DNA from: Artemia franciscana
Taxonomy: Eukaryota; Arthropoda; Branchiopoda; Anostraca; Artemiidae
Direction of reading: 5' to 3'
NCBI RefSeq assembly: GCF_032884065.1
Contig: NC_088873.1
Location: 38,303,823-38,367,822, forward strand
Length of the DNA: 64,000 nucleotides
The translations under genes were made by a program, and so were the position numbers. Shown one piece after another: positions 16,672 to 47,436 of this stretch. The notes below the pieces were generated by a model. That model did no database searches and had not been told where the DNA came from. It saw only the letters and a program-made list of their open reading frames with translations. Position 1 is the stretch's first letter, and every line of letters begins with the position of its first letter.

Positions 16672-18590
16672 TTAAGCAATTGATAGTTCAACACATTTTC
16701 TTGTTGGAAATCCATTTTTTTTTTTAAGTGTATATCTACAACTCAAGAAGTTAGAAAAGAACACCAAGAGAAAAACAGCATCAGATGAAAAGAAAACGAA
16801 TAAAGAGCCAGTTCTGCAATTCCATAGTAAAACCAGTATGTCATCAAGATCATTGTTAAAATTCATATCTGTGGTTGCAGTGGAACCCCCAAGCCTATAG
16901 ATTTTACTGTTGAACTGCAACATTTTTTTAGTAGGCTCAAACTGGGAACAGCAAATACCACACACTGACAACCACAGCCGAAAGACTACTATTGAGTTCA
17001 GCATAGGCAACAACATTCGATTCCGAAGTTTTTTCTTCACAATATTCATCATAGAAAATGACCTCTCAACTACAGCATTACTTATTGGCAGGCTGAGGAG
17101 GGTCAATGCCCACCTCGATAAGTCACGACATGGAGGAACACCAGCTGGATCAAGATGGTGCAGGACCTTGACCCAGAATTCACAAGAGTCACTTGGAATT
17201 TCTCCGCCACAAGCTGATGCCCAGTCAACTACCAAGAGTCTTCTCCACTGACTCTCTAACTCACTAATATTCAGCACTGGAATAACATCCAAAGGCAAAT
17301 CACTAAATCGAGGACGCAACTGCGACAAACAAATGGTCGGAGAAAGCACTTTCAGTTTCAGCAGAGAATCAAGAGCTGGGGGGCAAGCGCTTTAAAACTG
17401 CTCTAGCAGCTGTCTTGAGAAATTTGAGGCAACGCAGCTTTACTTCTTCCTTTTGATGACTGGTCAGCTTAGATCTTTCAAGCTCCAAATTGAACTCGTA
17501 TCCGTAGTCAACCTGGGCTGTAGGAAGGTAATAAATTTCGAAGTCCATATTCACTGTTAATGACACTGCAGACGTGTGCAATATTCTCTGCAGAAGACTT
17601 AATACAAACTCTTTTAGCTTTTGAAATAAACGAAAGTGATCTGCGTTAGTGTGTTGGAAAAGGAGGTTAACTCTCTGAAATTCGGCCAATAATGGCTTCA
17701 AGAAAACAATATATGCCTTATTTCGCTCATCGAGGTACATATCATGGAGCATTCGGGCAGTGTAGCAACTTTCCTTTTCCTTCGCTAATCGAAAGTGCGC
17801 TGACAGCTCAGAATACTGCTCGAGTATGCGAACGACTGCTCTATATCGAGACAGCCAATGGGTATTGGAAGGAGCAATCATTTTCAACGGAATATTCCCA
17901 TCGTTTATGAGCTGGAACATTTGCTGATATGCCTCTCTTCGTAAAGGACTAACGTTAAACCACTTGTAAGTCTCTGAGAGCATGAACTCCAAATTGCTTG
18001 GAAGCTCTCCAACAGCCTCGGAAGCACACAAATGTAGGGAGTGACATACACATTTGAAGAGTTGGAGTTGAGGCAACCTGTCATCTCGTAATAACGTGAA
18101 CAGCGAATGGTTCCCACCACACATGTTGTTTGCTCCATCTGTCCCAATACCTATCAGATTTTTTAGGGGAATTCCACATAAAGCTAAGACGTCTTTCAGT
18201 TCTTGATGTAAAATCACAGAAGTGGTCGAAGGTACTTCAACCATGCCCAAAGTAGCACAAGAACTTTCTTCATGTTGGGGCTATAGTATCTCACACAAAT
18301 ACACATGAATTTCATGGTGCCAACGTCGGTCGATTCGTCCAGAATAAGGGAATATCTGCTGTCACCAACATCAGCAACAATCTCTTGGAGACTTTCTGGT
18401 CCAAGAACATTCTTGATAAGGGCTGAACATTTTGTTCTCTTCAATTTCGTTGCCTCGGAAACTGGTCCAGGAAAAGCACTCTTGATAATGGTGGATAGGT
18501 GGTCAATAGTCATAATCGATGAATGACATGCGACATGTGCTGCCAAAATCAGTTCTGCTTTTCGTGCTTTGACATCGAGCTGAGTAATTC
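16672..18590 (-). pseudogene. hAT-superfamily transposase body (exon 2), frameshifted
   Basis: A DDE-type cut-and-paste transposase. The exon probably starts at 18590, after a TTTTCTTAG acceptor; the frame then reads GITQLDVKARKAELILAAHV. Visible parts: LILDESTDVG (catalytic Asp region, about 18345), GIGTDGANNMCGG (second Asp region, about 18130), CVCHSLHLCASEA, APSNTHWLSRYRAV, and the C-terminal hAT dimerisation region LSLPISNAVVERSFSMMN (about 17080) with KLRNRMLLPMLNSI. Two breaks are clear: a shift near 18260 (before GMVEVPSTTS) and a one-base gain in the G run 17378-17383, after which the correct frame resumes as ALDSLLKLKV. Both look like small slips in an otherwise well-preserved gene. 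The N-terminal zinc finger is not on this strand; a matching exon is at 23115-23374 on the plus strand. Confidence 0.88.
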
Positions 18591-19232: not shown

Positions 19233-21250
19233 ATGTTTAAGTTTAAAATGACTGATGAACTTACAATAGCAAAAGCCGATGAAGATGCTCAAAGAGTCAA
19301 TGCCAAAAAACATGCTGCTGATAGAGAAAGTCAGAAAAGAAAGCGAGCCGAGGAATTAAAAGAACAGCAAGGAAACAGGCTTGAGGCTGATAGAGAAAGA
19401 AAGAACAAAAAGCGTGCCGAGGAATCAAAAGAACAGCAAGGAAACAGGCTTGAGGCTGATAGAGAAAGAAAGAATAGAAAGCGTGCCGAGGAACTACCAG
19501 AGCAACGAGAAAGCAGACTTGCTGCTAAAAGAGAAAGTGAAAAAAGAAGGCGTGCCGAGGAATCACAAGAACAGCAAGAAATCAGGTTTGCTGCTGATAG
19601 AGAAAGTAACAAAAGAAAGCGTGCCGAGGAATCACAAGAACAGCAAGAAATCAGGCTTGCTGCTGATAGAGAAAGTAAGAAAAGAAAGCGTGCCGAGGAA
19701 TCAGAGCAACCTGAAAGTTATCGCCTGGCATTCAGGTACAGCCCAGTCGATGATTATAGCTTGAGTAGATGTGTTCAAATCGGGACAATGTCTAAAATTT
19801 GTCCCTATTGCAAGGCCTTGAAATTCAATGGTGAAACAATGGGAATGTGTTGCGCCTCAGGAAAAGTTAAACTTCCTCTATTGGCTGCACCACCAGAGCC
19901 ATTGAAGACTTTCCTTACTGGAACTACGTCAGAATCTAAGCGTTTTTTGTCAAAAATCAGAAAATACAACTCATGTTTCCAAATGACGTCGTTTGGAGCC
20001 CAAATCGAAAATCCACATCAATTTATGTCTACTTTCAAAGTAAAAGGGCAAATTTATCATAGAGCAGGGTCCCTTCTACCATTCTCAGGCGAGAATCATA
20101 AATTTTTACAATTGTACTTCATCAGTGATAGAAATTCTGAATTGAATGCACGTTGCGAAATTTCTCCCAGCGTTGAAAGGACAATCGTTTCCCAATTGCA
20201 ACATCTTTTCCACGAAAATAATAATTTAGTGCGTCTGTTCAAAACAGCCATCGATTTGATGCCTACTGATACGCATAAAATTGTTATTTCCGCTGACAAA
20301 ACGCCTCCTGGACAACATGTGCGTAGATACAATGCTCCAACTATTGACGAAGTGGCAATCGTTATGGTCGGTGATCAGTTTTTACCTCGAGATATTATTC
20401 TTCATAAGCTAACGCTCAGTTGTTAAGAATTGCTGAAACTCATCGATGCTACGATGCCCTACAATATCCTATCATTTTTTGGGATGGAGCCAACGGCTAT
20501 CACTTTAATATTAAATTGATGAATCCAGCCACTAACAAAGAAATGAATAAGAAATGCAGTACAATGCATTATTATTCCTATAGACTAATGATTCGGCAGG
20601 ATGAAGAAAATTATATTTTAAAATGCCGTGAATTGTTTCACCAATTTGTCGTTGATATGTATGCTAAAATTGAATCAGAACGTTTGCTATATATCCGCCT
20701 GAATCAGACCAAGCTCCGCTCTGAACAATACATTCATTTGCGAGATGCAGTTATAAATGACGGTAATACCACAAACGTTGGAAGATTAACAATTTTACCT
20801 TCGTCATATGCTGGCAGTCCCCGTCATATGCATGAATATGCTCAAGATGCTATTGTGTATGTTCGTCTCTATGGTCGTCCAGATTTATTTATTACATTTA
20901 CATGTAATCTATCTTGGGACGAGATACTGCAGCTTTTACTTCAAGGACAATCGGCGGTTCACAGGCATGACATTACGGCCCGTGTCTTCCGGCAAAAGTT
21001 GAAACCACTGATAAACTACATAGTAAAACTTGAAGTGTTTGGGTCAGTGCGATGCTGGATGTACTCAGTGGAATGACAAAAACGAGGTTTGCCACACGCA
21101 CAAATACTAATCCGGCTACATAAAAAATTACTTCGAACGGAATTGATGATGTGATTTCCGCTGAAATACCTGATAAAAATGTCAATAAGGGGTTACATGA
21201 TATTATTGTAAAAAATATGATACATGGACCTTGCGGTGCACTGAACGAAA
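19233..21250 (+). pseudogene. Helitron Rep (Helitron_like_N) N-terminal half, frameshifted
   Basis: ATG candidates are 19233 and 19248 (MTDELTIAKADED). Residues about 30-165 are five to six tandem charged units of 22-23 residues (such as LEADRERKNKKRAEESKEQQ), encoded by 66-69 bp repeats and probably a long helix. A zinc-ribbon-like CPYCKALKF..CCASGK follows (about residues 190-215), then the conserved Helitron N region: TIVSQLQHLF, LMPTDTHKIVI, APTIDEVAIVMVG. Around 20408-20412 one base is lost; the next frame (20420 on) continues AETHRCYDALQYPIIFWDGA, KKCSTMHYYSYRLMIR, LPSSYAGSPRHMHEYAQDA and LFITFTCNLSWDEI. A second shift near 21060 leads to VEWQKRGLPHAHIL, the HUH nuclease signature, and a NMIHGPCG stretch before similarity ends. 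The helicase half is missing. Confidence 0.9.
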
Positions 21251-26831: not shown

Positions 26832-29291
26832 ATGATGTATTCAGAGAAAAATAAATATGCTACTGAGAACTATCATATTGATAATGATAGTTTAAAAGAT
26901 GTTGAATTACTTTGCAAGGGTGTACACCATACTATCTATTCGGGAAAACGGTGTCTTTCTAGTACAGAATCAGAAACATACGTGTCTGTGCCCATTGTTC
27001 TTAGGGATTATTCTGGTGATGACATAGACGTATTTAGAAAGCAAGTGGATATACTAAAAGACTTGAAGCATGACAAACTAATAAAGTTTGTTGGTGTTTC
27101 TACTTTATCGTTAGACTCAAAGCATCATGAGCAAATAGTGCTGGAAAAGGCTCTTGGTGGAACCTTAAGAGAAAGAATTGAAAACTATGCTAACCCTTTG
27201 TCTGTAGAGGAGGTATTAACTGCAGCAAGAGATATTGCAGACGTGATGAAGTACTTACACACAAAGAAAATAAGGTACAGAGGTCTGTCAACAAAGAAAA
27301 TCTTTCTTAGACAAAACAACACCATAGCACTTACTCCCTGTTCTCAATCCATCCGCAAGTCAGACATAGAAAAGAAGGATTGGAGAAGGGTTGCAGAAGG
27401 AGTATATAATAGTCTGTGTGATGTTTATTCATATGGGATGGTATTAATTGAAATGCTTTTGGGAAAATCCTTAAATGATTTAGAGAAATCAAAACAAATA
27501 AAGTATTTAGCTAATGGTACTATCGATGTCGACCATGTGGCCAATTATCTGCCGCACAAAGAATCTTCTTTGCTGCTCTTCCAGATTGCTAGGAGATGCC
27601 TCAAAGAGAAATCTAAAGAAAGATTGTTTTCCTTTAAAGTTATTCATGAAGAGCTAGAAGAATTAAGTAAGATATTCTTGCCATCTAAAAGTTTTGAGGA
27701 TGTCCAGAAAATAAGTGATGGGACGCATGCTAATATCTCAAAAGCAAGGTACGAAAAAACATGGGTGGCCTTAAAAGATTTCTGTGGTTATAATAACAAA
27801 GCTTTTCATGGAGAATTCTTGCAACTGAAAAAACTGAAACATAAGAATATCGTGCGTTTACTTGGGGTGGCAAGTGGCATCAAAGATATAGAATCGATAA
27901 GGGGAGAACAGTTAGTCCTTGAGTACTGTTCTGAAGGATCACTAGCACAAAGAATAAAAAAGCCTTTCAAATTTATGGACCGAATCTTTATAGCTAGGGA
28001 TATAGCTGAAGGTATGGAGTACCTTCATTCAAAGGAGCTACTGCATAGGAATTTGTGTTCCAGCAATATTTTAGTGAAACAAGACGGTACTGCCGTGATA
28101 TGTGATTTCCGAATGACAATCGAATTTTCAGAGAAGGTTAAAGAAAAGTTTGATAATCATCCACGCAGTGCTCCTGAAATGACAGAAGATGAAGGATATG
28201 ATTTAAGCTCAGATGTTTACTCATTTGGAATGCTTCTATTAGAACTAGCTTCAGGAAAAACGTTAGAAGAATTAACACTTGATTACAAAGAAAGTGGGTA
28301 TGTCAATCTCGACAACTCTAGACAATTGATGGGCAGCATTTCTAACGATGCGGAAGCGGAATTTCTGGTCAGCTTGGTCAAGAAGTGCGTAGAAGAAGCG
28401 ACTTCATCACGGTTGTCATTTCCAGAAATCGTTGAAGAGATTCGTAAGAATAAGGTATGTGCAATTCACAAAGAGCCACTTGATCCAGTATTTCAGTGGA
28501 GAAATGATTTTTATGAAGTTTATAAGGCACATCTTGATACAAGCACTGTAAACATATTTATATTTGTATCCAAAGAAACTACAGATAAAGAAGTCCTAGA
28601 AAAGGAATTGCCATTCATTGTAAGCTTAAAGCATGAAAATATTATTCAATTAAGGGGATTAACAACAATAACCACAGCAAATTCTCAACTAAACAAACAT
28701 TTGGTATATGATTGTCTGGAGGAGAGTATTGATACCACCAATAGTGGCATATGGCCCATAACCAGAGTGCTGGAAGGTAACAGACATCTAAAAAAGGCCG
28801 ACGTCATCAAAGCTGCAAAGGAAATTTCTTCTGCTTTAAATCAACTGCATATAAATGAAAAAACTCACAAAAGGCTGACCAATTATTGCATATTTATGTC
28901 AGAAAAACGGTGTTTACTTATAGACCTTGCAGTAGCAAGTATTTCATTAGACAACCATGGAAACGGAGGCTCAAAATTGCGCACCCCACCTGAAGAGAGG
29001 AGAAAAGAAGAAAATATAGATGAAAAGCGTGCTGATGTGTATAGATTTGGTGTTCTATTTTGTGAACTTATTTTTGGGAAAGTTTTTGAAGACTTAAAGC
29101 TTCCAATAGAAAAAGATGAGAAAAGAACTGAAGTCATTGATTTCAATCAGATGAGACGACAAAACAGAAAACTTTTAAAAAGCAATAGAAAAAAATTATA
29201 CAAATTTGCTATTAGGTGCTTAAACTCCTGTCCAATAAACAGACCGACTCTTAAAAATGTAATTGAGAAACTTGATAACACCAAATGGTAA
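26832..29291 (+). CDS. Triple tandem pseudokinase (three degenerate kinase-like domains), intronless
   Basis: One uninterrupted 819-residue frame with three protein-kinase-like domains at about residues 20-283, 290-540 and 553-817. Each repeats the alphaC-beta4 signature (DLKHDKLIKFVGV 77-89, KLKHKNIVRLLGV 334-346, SLKHENIIQLRGL 598-610), a YLH/LH helix, and the DVYSFG-type helix F (197-202, 461-466, 735-740), then an RCL/KCV..R end. Catalytic residues are lost. Domain 1 has no beta3 Lys (VLRDY), YRG for HRD (149-151) and no DFG. Domain 2 keeps VALK (Lys315) and SAPEM but has HRN (405-407) and DFR (425-427). Domain 3 has FIF for the Lys strand, HKR (679-681) and DLA (698-700). No signal peptide or membrane segment is evident. 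The style is tyrosine-kinase-like/TKL. Likely a scaffold or allosteric regulator rather than an enzyme; function unknown. The start is the first of two adjacent ATGs. It is the only long clean frame in the window. Intronless form may reflect retrocopy origin. Confidence 0.9.
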   Translation: MMYSEKNKYATENYHIDNDSLKDVELLCKGVHHTIYSGKRCLSSTESETYVSVPIVLRDYSGDDIDVFRKQVDILKDLKHDKLIKFVGVSTLSLDSKHHEQIVLEKALGGTLRERIENYANPLSVEEVLTAARDIADVMKYLHTKKIRYRGLSTKKIFLRQNNTIALTPCSQSIRKSDIEKKDWRRVAEGVYNSLCDVYSYGMVLIEMLLGKSLNDLEKSKQIKYLANGTIDVDHVANYLPHKESSLLLFQIARRCLKEKSKERLFSFKVIHEELEELSKIFLPSKSFEDVQKISDGTHANISKARYEKTWVALKDFCGYNNKAFHGEFLQLKKLKHKNIVRLLGVASGIKDIESIRGEQLVLEYCSEGSLAQRIKKPFKFMDRIFIARDIAEGMEYLHSKELLHRNLCSSNILVKQDGTAVICDFRMTIEFSEKVKEKFDNHPRSAPEMTEDEGYDLSSDVYSFGMLLLELASGKTLEELTLDYKESGYVNLDNSRQLMGSISNDAEAEFLVSLVKKCVEEATSSRLSFPEIVEEIRKNKVCAIHKEPLDPVFQWRNDFYEVYKAHLDTSTVNIFIFVSKETTDKEVLEKELPFIVSLKHENIIQLRGLTTITTANSQLNKHLVYDCLEESIDTTNSGIWPITRVLEGNRHLKKADVIKAAKEISSALNQLHINEKTHKRLTNYCIFMSEKRCLLIDLAVASISLDNHGNGGSKLRTPPEERRKEENIDEKRADVYRFGVLFCELIFGKVFEDLKLPIEKDEKRTEVIDFNQMRRQNRKLLKSNRKKLYKFAIRCLNSCPINRPTLKNVIEKLDNTKW

Positions 29292-29511: not shown

Positions 29512-29517
29512 AATAAA
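29512..29517 (+). terminator. Candidate polyadenylation signal AATAAA
   Basis: AATAAA about 220 bases after the stop codon of the triple pseudokinase frame. It is the first canonical hexamer found downstream; use is not shown. Confidence 0.4.
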
Positions 29518-29560: not shown

Positions 29561-30050
29561 ATGACTTCCCAGTTTAAGACGCCACACGGTGGTATATTCA
29601 TTCCGAAAACTAAAATCCGTCGTACATATGGTACAATTGTTAATTATCAGTTTCATTTGAATAGAGCCCATCTTGCGAGAATTTACAATAGTGTTGTCCT
29701 GCCACATATTCTGTATTTAGTACCGTTTTACCCTATATTTAGTGGTTCTGACCATCTTAGGATGAAGCACGTTTTCTTCAAAGTTGCTAAGTTTCTGTTT
29801 TGAGTTCCTCCGTAGAACCGCAACTCTTATTTGATGAAAAAATATAGCTTGTCTAACCCGTGTGCTAAGTTAACTGAGTTGAATGTACACATGTGCAACA
29901 AGCAAACTGGCCATGAATGACAAAATGTTGTTTTTTACGAGGAATTATTTCTGTTTGCATTTTAGAATGTAACACGATATGTTGTTTCATTCTTTTTTTA
30001 AATGTACTCCATCACTTCATTATTTTGTATGATGGGTTATAAATCAATAC
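29561..30050 (+). pseudogene. LINE ORF2 C-terminal end and 3' UTR
   Basis: The frame HLARIYNSVVLPHILYLVPF followed by KVAKFLF is the region after the RT domain in CR1/Jockey-type LINEs. A stop follows, then a degenerate continuation (RNSYLMKKYSLSNPCAKLTE) in the same register. The presumed 3' UTR ends near 30050 in TATAAATCAATACATACATA, a short-repeat tail. It differs from the LINE at 10-14 kb. Strongly 5' truncated. Confidence 0.6.
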
Positions 30051-30054
30051 ATAC

Positions 30055-30625
30055 ATACAAAATGTGAAAGCTACTAGGGTTCAATAAACTTAGGGGACTT
30101 TCTCTATAAAACGATGATAAATACATGCATACATACAAACATACGAAACGATACATACATACATACATACGATAAATACAGGCATACATACATACAAAAT
30201 GTGAGAACTACTAGGGTTCAATAAACTTAGGGGACTTTCTCTATGCATACATATATACAAAATGTGAGAACTACTAGGGTTCAATAAACTTAGGGAACTT
30301 CCTCTATAAAACGATGATAAATACATGCATACATACATACATACGAAACGATAAATACATACATACGATAAATACATGCATACATACATACAAAATGTGA
30401 GAACTACTAGGGCTCAATAAACTTAGGGGACTTTCTCTATAAAGCGATGATAAATACATACATACATACAAAACGATAAATACATACATACATACATACA
30501 AAATGTGAGAACTACTAGGGTTCAATAAACTTAGGGGACTTTCTCTATAAAACGATGTAAATACATGCGTAAATACATACATACGGAACATATATAAAAC
30601 GAAACATATATAATACATATATAAA
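30055..30625. repeat. Minisatellite with ACTACTAGGGTTCAATAAAC core and (ATAC)n
   Basis: Five units contain ACTAGGGTTCAATAAACTTA followed by GGGGACTTTCTCTATAAAAC and a variable run of ATACATAC (cores at about 30074, 30211, 30274, 30402, 30515). Spacing varies from about 63 to 137 bp because the ATAC part changes in length. The array begins where the LINE tail ends. The long minus-strand frames here are translations of the repeat. Confidence 0.9.
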
Positions 30626-46929: not shown

Positions 46930-47436
46930 ACCCCTCGTCGGTTTTATAAAGTCGAAAACTACAGGTGTAACAGCATTGAGTTAATAAAAGTTACAATAGA
47001 GCATCCACAACAGACAAATTTCATATTCTGTATTTACAAGCCAAACCACGTGCGCATTAATACACTCATTAACTGCATTAGCGACTTACTAACCCCATGT
47101 ATTGACAACGGTCATACAATATTGTTAGGGGACTTTAATATAAACAGTAAAGAAACAACAAATACTGAATACAATACTTTACAACATGCCCTTAGTAATC
47201 TTCGACTTCTACAGCTCATACAAGAGCCCACTACAATTAACGGCTCAACAATAGATCTGATTTTTACAAACATACTTTCTGATCAACAACATTCCGGAGT
47301 CCTAGAACAATATTACAGCGACCATTATCCCATTTTCATCACTTTTCCAAAATATGCTAAAAAAGATAAAACATCAAAAAGAAAAATTCGACAAGAATAC
47401 AACAATGAAACAATAAAAACAAGAAGAATACAATAG
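46930..47436 (+). pseudogene. LINE endonuclease-domain fragment
   Basis: Frame PRRFYKVENYRCNSIELIKV, then FIFCIYKPNHVRINTLIN, ILLGDFNINSKETTN, LLQLIQEPTTINGSTIDLIF and YYSDHYPIFITF. GDFNI and SDHYPI are the metal-binding and catalytic motifs of APE-type endonucleases of non-LTR elements. It starts after the N-terminal Asn/Glu motifs and stops after SDH with a basic tail, so it lacks the RT. Located just upstream (minus sense) of the internal exon at 46848, so it probably sits in an intron of that gene. Confidence 0.75.

Follow-up and report, generated by a model that had tools for sequence, protein, structure and literature searches.

An uninterrupted gene for three tandem pseudokinase domains, and its relatives, in the brine shrimp Artemia franciscana

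The stretch of Artemia franciscana (brine shrimp) DNA analyzed here, 64,000 nucleotides long and called the window below, contains an uninterrupted gene for three kinase-fold domains in a row, none of which possesses the aspartate of the HRD motif. Our favored interpretation, held with moderate confidence and based on sequence comparison and on analogy with studied pseudokinases, is that this window gene is functional and that its product would be a catalytically dead triple pseudokinase, acting as a scaffold or allosteric regulator, from a family that expanded in this lineage.

The window gene and its domains

The gene and its landmarks, all on the forward strand, are as follows.

26832..29291, +, uninterrupted coding frame, 819 aa, with three tandem kinase-fold domains (frame list and Pfam)
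26832..27680, +, domain 1, aa 1-283, degenerate (alignment; PF07714 83.0 bits, E 2.7e-23; PF00069 57.6 bits)
27681..28451, +, domain 2, aa 284-540, best preserved (alignment; PF07714 132.3 bits, E 2.5e-38; PF00069 110.5 bits)
28452..29288, +, domain 3, aa 541-819, degenerate (alignment; PF07714 54.9 bits, E 1.1e-14; PF00069 46.3 bits)
27774..27776, +, codon of Lys315, the beta3 Lys of domain 2 (alignment)
28050..28052, +, codon of Asn407, which replaces the HRD Asp of domain 2 (alignment)
28104..28106, +, codon of Asp425, the Asp of the domain 2 DFR motif (alignment)
29512..29517, +, first AATAAA 3' of the stop, 221 bases away, a putative polyadenylation signal (consensus match only)

The original prediction of a single 819-codon frame with three kinase-like domains was confirmed. 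The frame opens with an ATG at 26832, its stop ends at 29291 and no codon in between interrupts it; it is the longest of the seven frames in the window that reach 200 aa (the runner-up has 397 aa). In the whole protein Pfam recognizes only PK_Tyr_Ser-Thr (254.9 bits) and Pkinase (191.4 bits), both in three stretches, and each third alone scores above the cut-offs of both PF07714 and PF00069, which assigns it by sequence to the eukaryotic protein kinase-like superfamily. The gene is intronless, as proposed, with respect to its coding frame, while an intron in the 5' UTR is possible. Upstream exons, which might have supplied an active domain and thereby overturned the prediction, were not found: the N-terminus aligns with the N-termini of five paralogues, so there is no sign that such exons have been lost. 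Similarity to 14 NCBIfam families, the best being the MAD6 antiphage kinase (128 bits vs a cut-off of 460), is read as generic kinase similarity because none of the families listed reaches its cut-off.

Alignment bore out the reported loss of catalytic motifs. In place of HRD the three domains carry YRG, HRN (N407) and HKR, respectively; the beta3 Lys is present in domain 2 alone (K315), with Arg in domain 1 and Phe in domain 3; DFG is absent, changed to DFR (D425) and changed to DLA; and APE is lost, kept (SAPE) and altered (TPPEE). Every domain is a pseudokinase in the sense that at least one of the beta3 Lys, HRD Asp and DFG Asp is missing from it. The fold-defining motifs were said to be kept throughout, to which minor corrections apply: helix F varies (DVYSYG, DVYSFG and DVYRFG in domains 1 to 3), and the LKH.N motif of domain 1 lacks its Asn (LKHDKLI). 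Domain 2 retains K315, E328 in alphaC, N412 in the catalytic loop and D425 of DFR, and in its Gly loop (SDGTHANI) the first and third Gly are changed. With the HRD Asp in no domain, ordinary phosphotransfer by the protein is unlikely, although loss of this residue is no proof of inactivity. On the strength of the four residues kept, domain 2 is probably nucleotide-binding.

The family in the Artemia genome and its history

The window gene is no lone oddity: it is one of six triple genes, which are accompanied by six single-domain relatives. The genome searched comprised 1,270,528,402 bases in 6,468 contigs (the assembly is described as 1,270,721,445 bp in 6,486 scaffolds, with 34.71% GC; PMC11492255), and only the best candidates were scored, so that family counts are lower bounds. 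The window protein gave 35 matches, of which the top 24 all belong to the family or to one intact-looking kinase, called here the C8 kinase: they are the gene itself, pieces of the five triple paralogues, two pieces of a decayed copy, the C8 kinase and six single-domain frames. Besides the window gene, the family thus includes at least five uninterrupted triple-domain frames on the C3 and C7 scaffolds, at least six uninterrupted single-domain pseudokinase frames, and one decayed copy. The triple paralogues are listed below.

C3a (locus L012), 835 aa, open from ATG to stop
C3b (locus L013), 851 aa, open from ATG to stop
C7a (locus L009), 781 aa, open from ATG to stop
C7b and C7c (loci L010 and L011), 770 aa each, open from ATG to stop

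All five are collinear with the window gene, at 29-33% identity over nearly the full length. We define the Artemia triple-pseudokinase family by three kinase-fold domains encoded in a single uninterrupted frame, collinear similarity over the full length and loss of the HRD Asp, and the window gene has each of these properties. The decayed copy (C3:20.937-20.939 Mb) is 64-75% identical to the C3 genes in its best pieces, contains stops and is partly inverted. Over 5,335 bases C7b and C7c, which lie in opposite orientation, are 99.3% identical. One of them may be a duplicate created in assembly, so that the independent triple genes may number five. The flanks of C7a and C7b remain about 93-96% alike beyond the frame, and the C20 pair is 92% identical over 2.1 kb. 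Such sharing of flanking DNA suggests that the later spread of the family occurred by DNA duplication. Comparison of the flanks of the window gene with those of its paralogues gave matches of 22 and 66 bases only, the 66-base one coding, and did not indicate the origin of the gene. A 1.2 kb inverted repeat at another locus (L026, G000:C7:47286000-47292500) consists of two single-domain pseudokinase frames in head-to-head arrangement, its arms being 97.9% identical and 230 bases apart.

For a comparison of motifs, all 18 domains from the triple genes and the six single-domain frames were aligned with the C8 kinase and two other kinases. In 24/24 family rows the HRD Asp is absent, its position being occupied by N, S, A, G or R; the beta3 Lys is retained in 17 of these 24 rows and the DFG Asp also in 17 (both counted by eye). 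In the C3 genes the set of Lys, alphaC Glu, catalytic-loop Asn and DFG Asp is kept in domains 1 and 2. Domain 1 of the C7 genes keeps the Lys, Glu and Asp, with the catalytic-loop Asn changed to Asp (HRSIIADD); their domain 3 keeps the Lys and Asp and has Cys at the catalytic-loop Asn.

The C8 kinase is the nearest HRD-intact relative of the family that was found. It is an uninterrupted single-domain frame of 287 aa from its Met, scoring 150 bits against Pkinase, and its motifs (GxGxxG loop, VAVK, HRDLKSDN, DYG, APE) are intact. When it served as the query, the best 14 non-self matches were all family domains (115 to 73 bits), the next other kinase following at 61 bits. Its nearest solved structures are JAK1, LCK, LIMK and RIPK1, for which reason we name it TK/TKL-like without assigning a subfamily; its matches to 17 NCBIfam families are again read as generic kinase similarity. 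A match of the window gene to a family with active sites would have contradicted the original prediction, and none was found, the intact-looking C8 kinase being a separate gene.

In a tree of 35 rows, third domains grouped together with support of 100/98 and second domains with 85/75, first domains formed no resolved group, and the C8 kinase adjoined the family in a joint group (94/91). A smaller tree of 23 rows, from which C7c (three domains), a single-domain frame and eight of the ten outgroup rows were dropped, had branches that set apart the first (56/88), the second (92/91) and the third domains (97/98). On the same 23 rows a single clade of the window gene's three domains, as expected if that gene had been triplicated on its own, was rejected (p-AU 0.00276). 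Because the domains group by position and this clade is rejected, the triple architecture existed before the six genes diverged. A single clade of all 15 triple domains was not rejected (p-AU 0.116), though it is absent from the best 23-row tree, and that tree separates the pseudokinases from the C8 kinase by a weak split (53/33). The branches of the window gene in the 35-row tree are long (1.22 for domain 1, 0.72 for domain 2, the shortest, and 1.88 for domain 3), and tree placements are to be read with care.

The simplest history suggested by the motifs on the tree is that the HRD Asp was lost before triplication. The family may have arisen from an uninterrupted TKL/TK-like kinase resembling the C8 kinase, which would have lost its catalytic base, then been triplicated within the protein, and then multiplied by DNA duplication. 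An intron-bearing parent gene was not found; beyond the family, the best-scored genome matches of the window gene and the C8 kinase were weak, generic kinases.

A separate problem is the possibility that the window gene is a neutral relic of a processed gene that happens to be still open, or cargo of a mobile element or virus. Its surroundings include the following frames, recognized by Pfam.

16675-17349, -, hAT-like frame
20420-21073, +, Helitron-like frame
47050-47433, +, frame of endonuclease/reverse-transcriptase type (LINE-type endonuclease)

Among the eight window frames examined with Pfam besides the gene, four had no match and one matched a short repeat family only. Such transposon-rich surroundings are ordinary for a genome reported to consist of 67% repeats (PMC11492255). 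Nothing in the repeats around the gene marks an insertion. An uninterrupted frame among transposons, in a family with a decayed member, is what a relic or cargo might look like. However, 819 codons have stayed open despite saturated synonymous divergence, the paralogues are under purifying selection, and the flanking DNA common to duplicates (C7a/C7b, the C20 pair) speaks for DNA duplication in the later spread. As to a viral source, no relatives were confirmed in viral contigs, where a pattern search with an alignment of the three window domains gave 137 stretches and no confirmed one, and the matches of the window protein in phages are to generic kinases (nine records, of which the eight listed have 24-27% identity over at most 31% of the query). 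We therefore consider a relic or cargo very improbable. Bacterial and archaeal genome contigs searched with the C8 kinase yielded 31 stretches, none of them confirmed. Downstream of the gene, at 30045-30300, a 56-base direct repeat occurs three times (93-100% identity) with ATAC-rich spacers; Rfam had no match in the window at the gathering threshold.

Several other sets of frames were seen in the same genome. Repeated, uninterrupted kinase-bearing frames reach 1677 aa, and one of them (L023, G000:C137:69787-70569) is a fusion with a DEAD/RecQ-like helicase. Nine more frames, grouped with it solely by the place and length of the Pkinase match, lie at C5172:5789-6616, C5:21981984-21982811 (L019), C668, C12 (L025), C14:24573426, C4990, C137:53615, C7:50047029 and C5841; a mobile or virus-like element with a kinase is a possible explanation of this set. 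A second multi-copy set, of 580-830 aa and likewise uninterrupted, combines a C-terminal kinase domain with a long N-terminal part (G000:C11:6592210, L014; C11:6621218, L015; copies on C156; C3:354727, L016; C3:404089, L017; C3:50371827, L022; C5:43943452, L024); in L014 the HRD motif is intact (HRDLRANN) and the N-terminal part has no Pfam match. A different tandem-kinase frame of 1401 aa (L018, G000:C5:50404500-50411000) has three Pkinase stretches, with HRD intact in at least one (HRDLKPAN). Finally, cox1 has 75 matches in nuclear contigs, many of which span most of the gene and have yet to acquire a TAA/TAG (for example, C4:9980752-9982092 and C12:16543503-16544840). They appear to be abundant, partly recent nuclear mitochondrial DNA, some perhaps assembly artefacts.

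Selection and the proposed function

About 137 stop-creating hits are expected in the window frame per one neutral substitution per site, equal rates assumed, and no stop is observed. Such an outcome, together with the low identity to the paralogues and the saturation of synonymous sites, excludes an open frame by chance. Judged by its sequence, this is probably a functional protein-coding gene, and it appears to be selectively maintained now, or to have been until recently.

Close members of the family are under purifying selection. The dN/dS ratio is 0.281 for C7a/C7b (95% bootstrap interval 0.178-0.423; p 2e-8 against neutrality, Fisher's test on sites) and 0.288 for C3a/C3b (0.224-0.359; p 1e-23, same test). 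In both pairs it is lowest in the Lys-bearing domain 1 (0.124, 0.323 and 0.470 for the C7 domains in order; 0.222, 0.262 and 0.399 for those of C3). The difference between domain 1 and domains 2 and 3 together has a p of 0.033 in the C7 pair but lacks significance for C3 (p 0.27), and for domain 3 of the C7 pair by itself neutrality is not rejected (0.47, interval 0.23-1.21, p 0.096). Broken copies with a neutral ratio had been named as a result that would refute the prediction; there is one decayed copy, but five paralogues are intact. Between the window gene and its paralogues synonymous sites are saturated (pS 0.75-0.80, with pN 0.44-0.45) and it has no close copy; constraint on it is suggested by its open frame and by its family.

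The idea that selection acts on the fold rather than on catalysis was correct only in part. Selection is evident through the paralogues (0.28, 0.29), but the contrast with catalysis is too strong, since domain 2 of the window gene keeps the four residues that ATP-Mg binding usually requires and the Lys-bearing domain has the lowest ratio in the pairs. One plausible explanation would involve a nucleotide-switch domain, which is suggested by the kept nucleotide-site residues, by that low ratio in domain 1, and by the shortest branch of the window gene falling at domain 2. By analogy, the protein would act as a scaffold or allosteric regulator of genuine kinases. Each gene has one domain whose nucleotide pocket is largely retained and which, by binding ATP, may serve as a conformational switch: domain 2 for the window gene, domain 1 (and domain 2 as well) for the C3 genes, and domain 1 for the C7 genes. 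The more degenerate domains would provide protein-binding surfaces, and the C8 kinase is a candidate partner.

The same residues could instead mean that domain 2 is an active enzyme with an atypical mechanism, either weak phosphotransfer without HRD or another nucleotide transfer, and that domains 1 and 3 are its regulators. The retention of K315, E328, N412 and D425 would fit such an enzyme, as would the strongest constraint on the Lys-bearing domain in both pairs, and a plant Raf-like pseudokinase, ILK1, is reported to be active by an atypical mechanism (PMC9403797). However, not one of the 24 aligned family domains has the HRD Asp, in domain 2 the DFG Gly is replaced by Arg and two loop glycines are changed, and the missing catalytic-loop Asn in domain 1 of the C7 genes speaks against a shared catalytic role. 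We regard atypical catalysis as improbable.

Comparison with known tandem kinases and pseudokinases

The plant tandem kinase proteins WTK1/Yr15, RPG1 and Sr62 resemble the window gene in having two or three kinase-fold domains per protein, in the loss of key residues and in lineage expansion. As described in PMC6170490, PMC8956640 and PMC6997164, such proteins have at least one domain with key residues and fall within plant receptor-like kinase subfamilies. The Artemia genes differ in that the HRD Asp is found in 0/18 domains of the six triple genes, and in their animal host. The likeness raises the possibility that the Artemia proteins are immune decoys or sensors equivalent to those of plants, with domains that would mimic kinases attacked by pathogens and a fast duplication driven by conflict. 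Expansion by duplication within the lineage, the decayed copy and the long branches of the window gene agree with it, and in plants the pseudokinase has been proposed as an effector decoy (PMC8956640). On the other hand, positive selection was not seen, overall dN/dS being well under 1 in both pairs; no pathway or pathogen link is known; and the plant proteins owe their name to one or more kinase-like domains that retain the key residues, while the HRD Asp occurs in no window domain. Thus, we think an immune decoy unlikely. A related and equally doubtful idea is an all-dead animal tandem-kinase receptor or decoy, similar to the plant immune proteins yet with no active domain in the chain, in which one ATP-binding domain of a duplicating triple family would be the switch, while partner or pathogen proteins would be sampled by the other two dead domains.

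Among animal proteins, Janus kinases (JAK1, TYK2) also have tandem kinase-fold domains, and the best PDB match of the window protein is a Janus kinase (7t6f_A, 78.8 bits). In these enzymes the JH2 domain is a pseudokinase, the JH1 domain is active and C-terminal, and FERM and SH2 domains precede JH2-JH1. Unlike them, the window protein has only kinase-family Pfam matches, with neither FERM nor SH2, and the HRD Asp in no domain. Pseudokinases of the HER3/ErbB3 type have HRN for HRD and keep the beta3 Lys and the DFG Asp. They are single-domain receptors that retain the DFG Gly, whereas domain 2 of the window protein has DFR and two further domains beside it. KSR and RAF proteins have one kinase domain, accompanied by a cysteine-rich or Ras-binding domain of the Raf type. 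The window protein, with three kinase folds and no other Pfam domain, differs from this plan of a single kinase domain with Raf-type N-terminal parts. In KSR, KSR3 and other allosteric pseudokinases a kinase-dead fold activates a partner kinase allosterically, as proposed for the window protein, and B-Raf is among the nearest solved structures of the latter; in non-chordate animals KSR3 is reported to activate RAF while being kinase-defective (PMC10322840).

Searches of open-licence PubMed Central papers turned up no account of an all-dead triple kinase family. Among papers on Artemia genomes, the words "pseudokinase" and "intronless" occur 0 times in PMC8406910, and "kinase" occurs once in PMC11492255 and 0 times in PMC10827361. 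We rate the Artemia genes as a new family within a known kind, the pseudokinases.

Studies of pseudokinases usually deal with single ones or with ones linked to an active kinase domain. Here, triple dead folds kept by purifying selection, single dead relatives and an intact-looking relative occur in one genome, a natural series on what selection keeps in the absence of catalysis, in which the position of the best-preserved domain shifts between genes, from domain 2 in the window gene to domain 1 in the C7 genes. As Artemia is a laboratory-friendly animal, this question is accessible to experiment.
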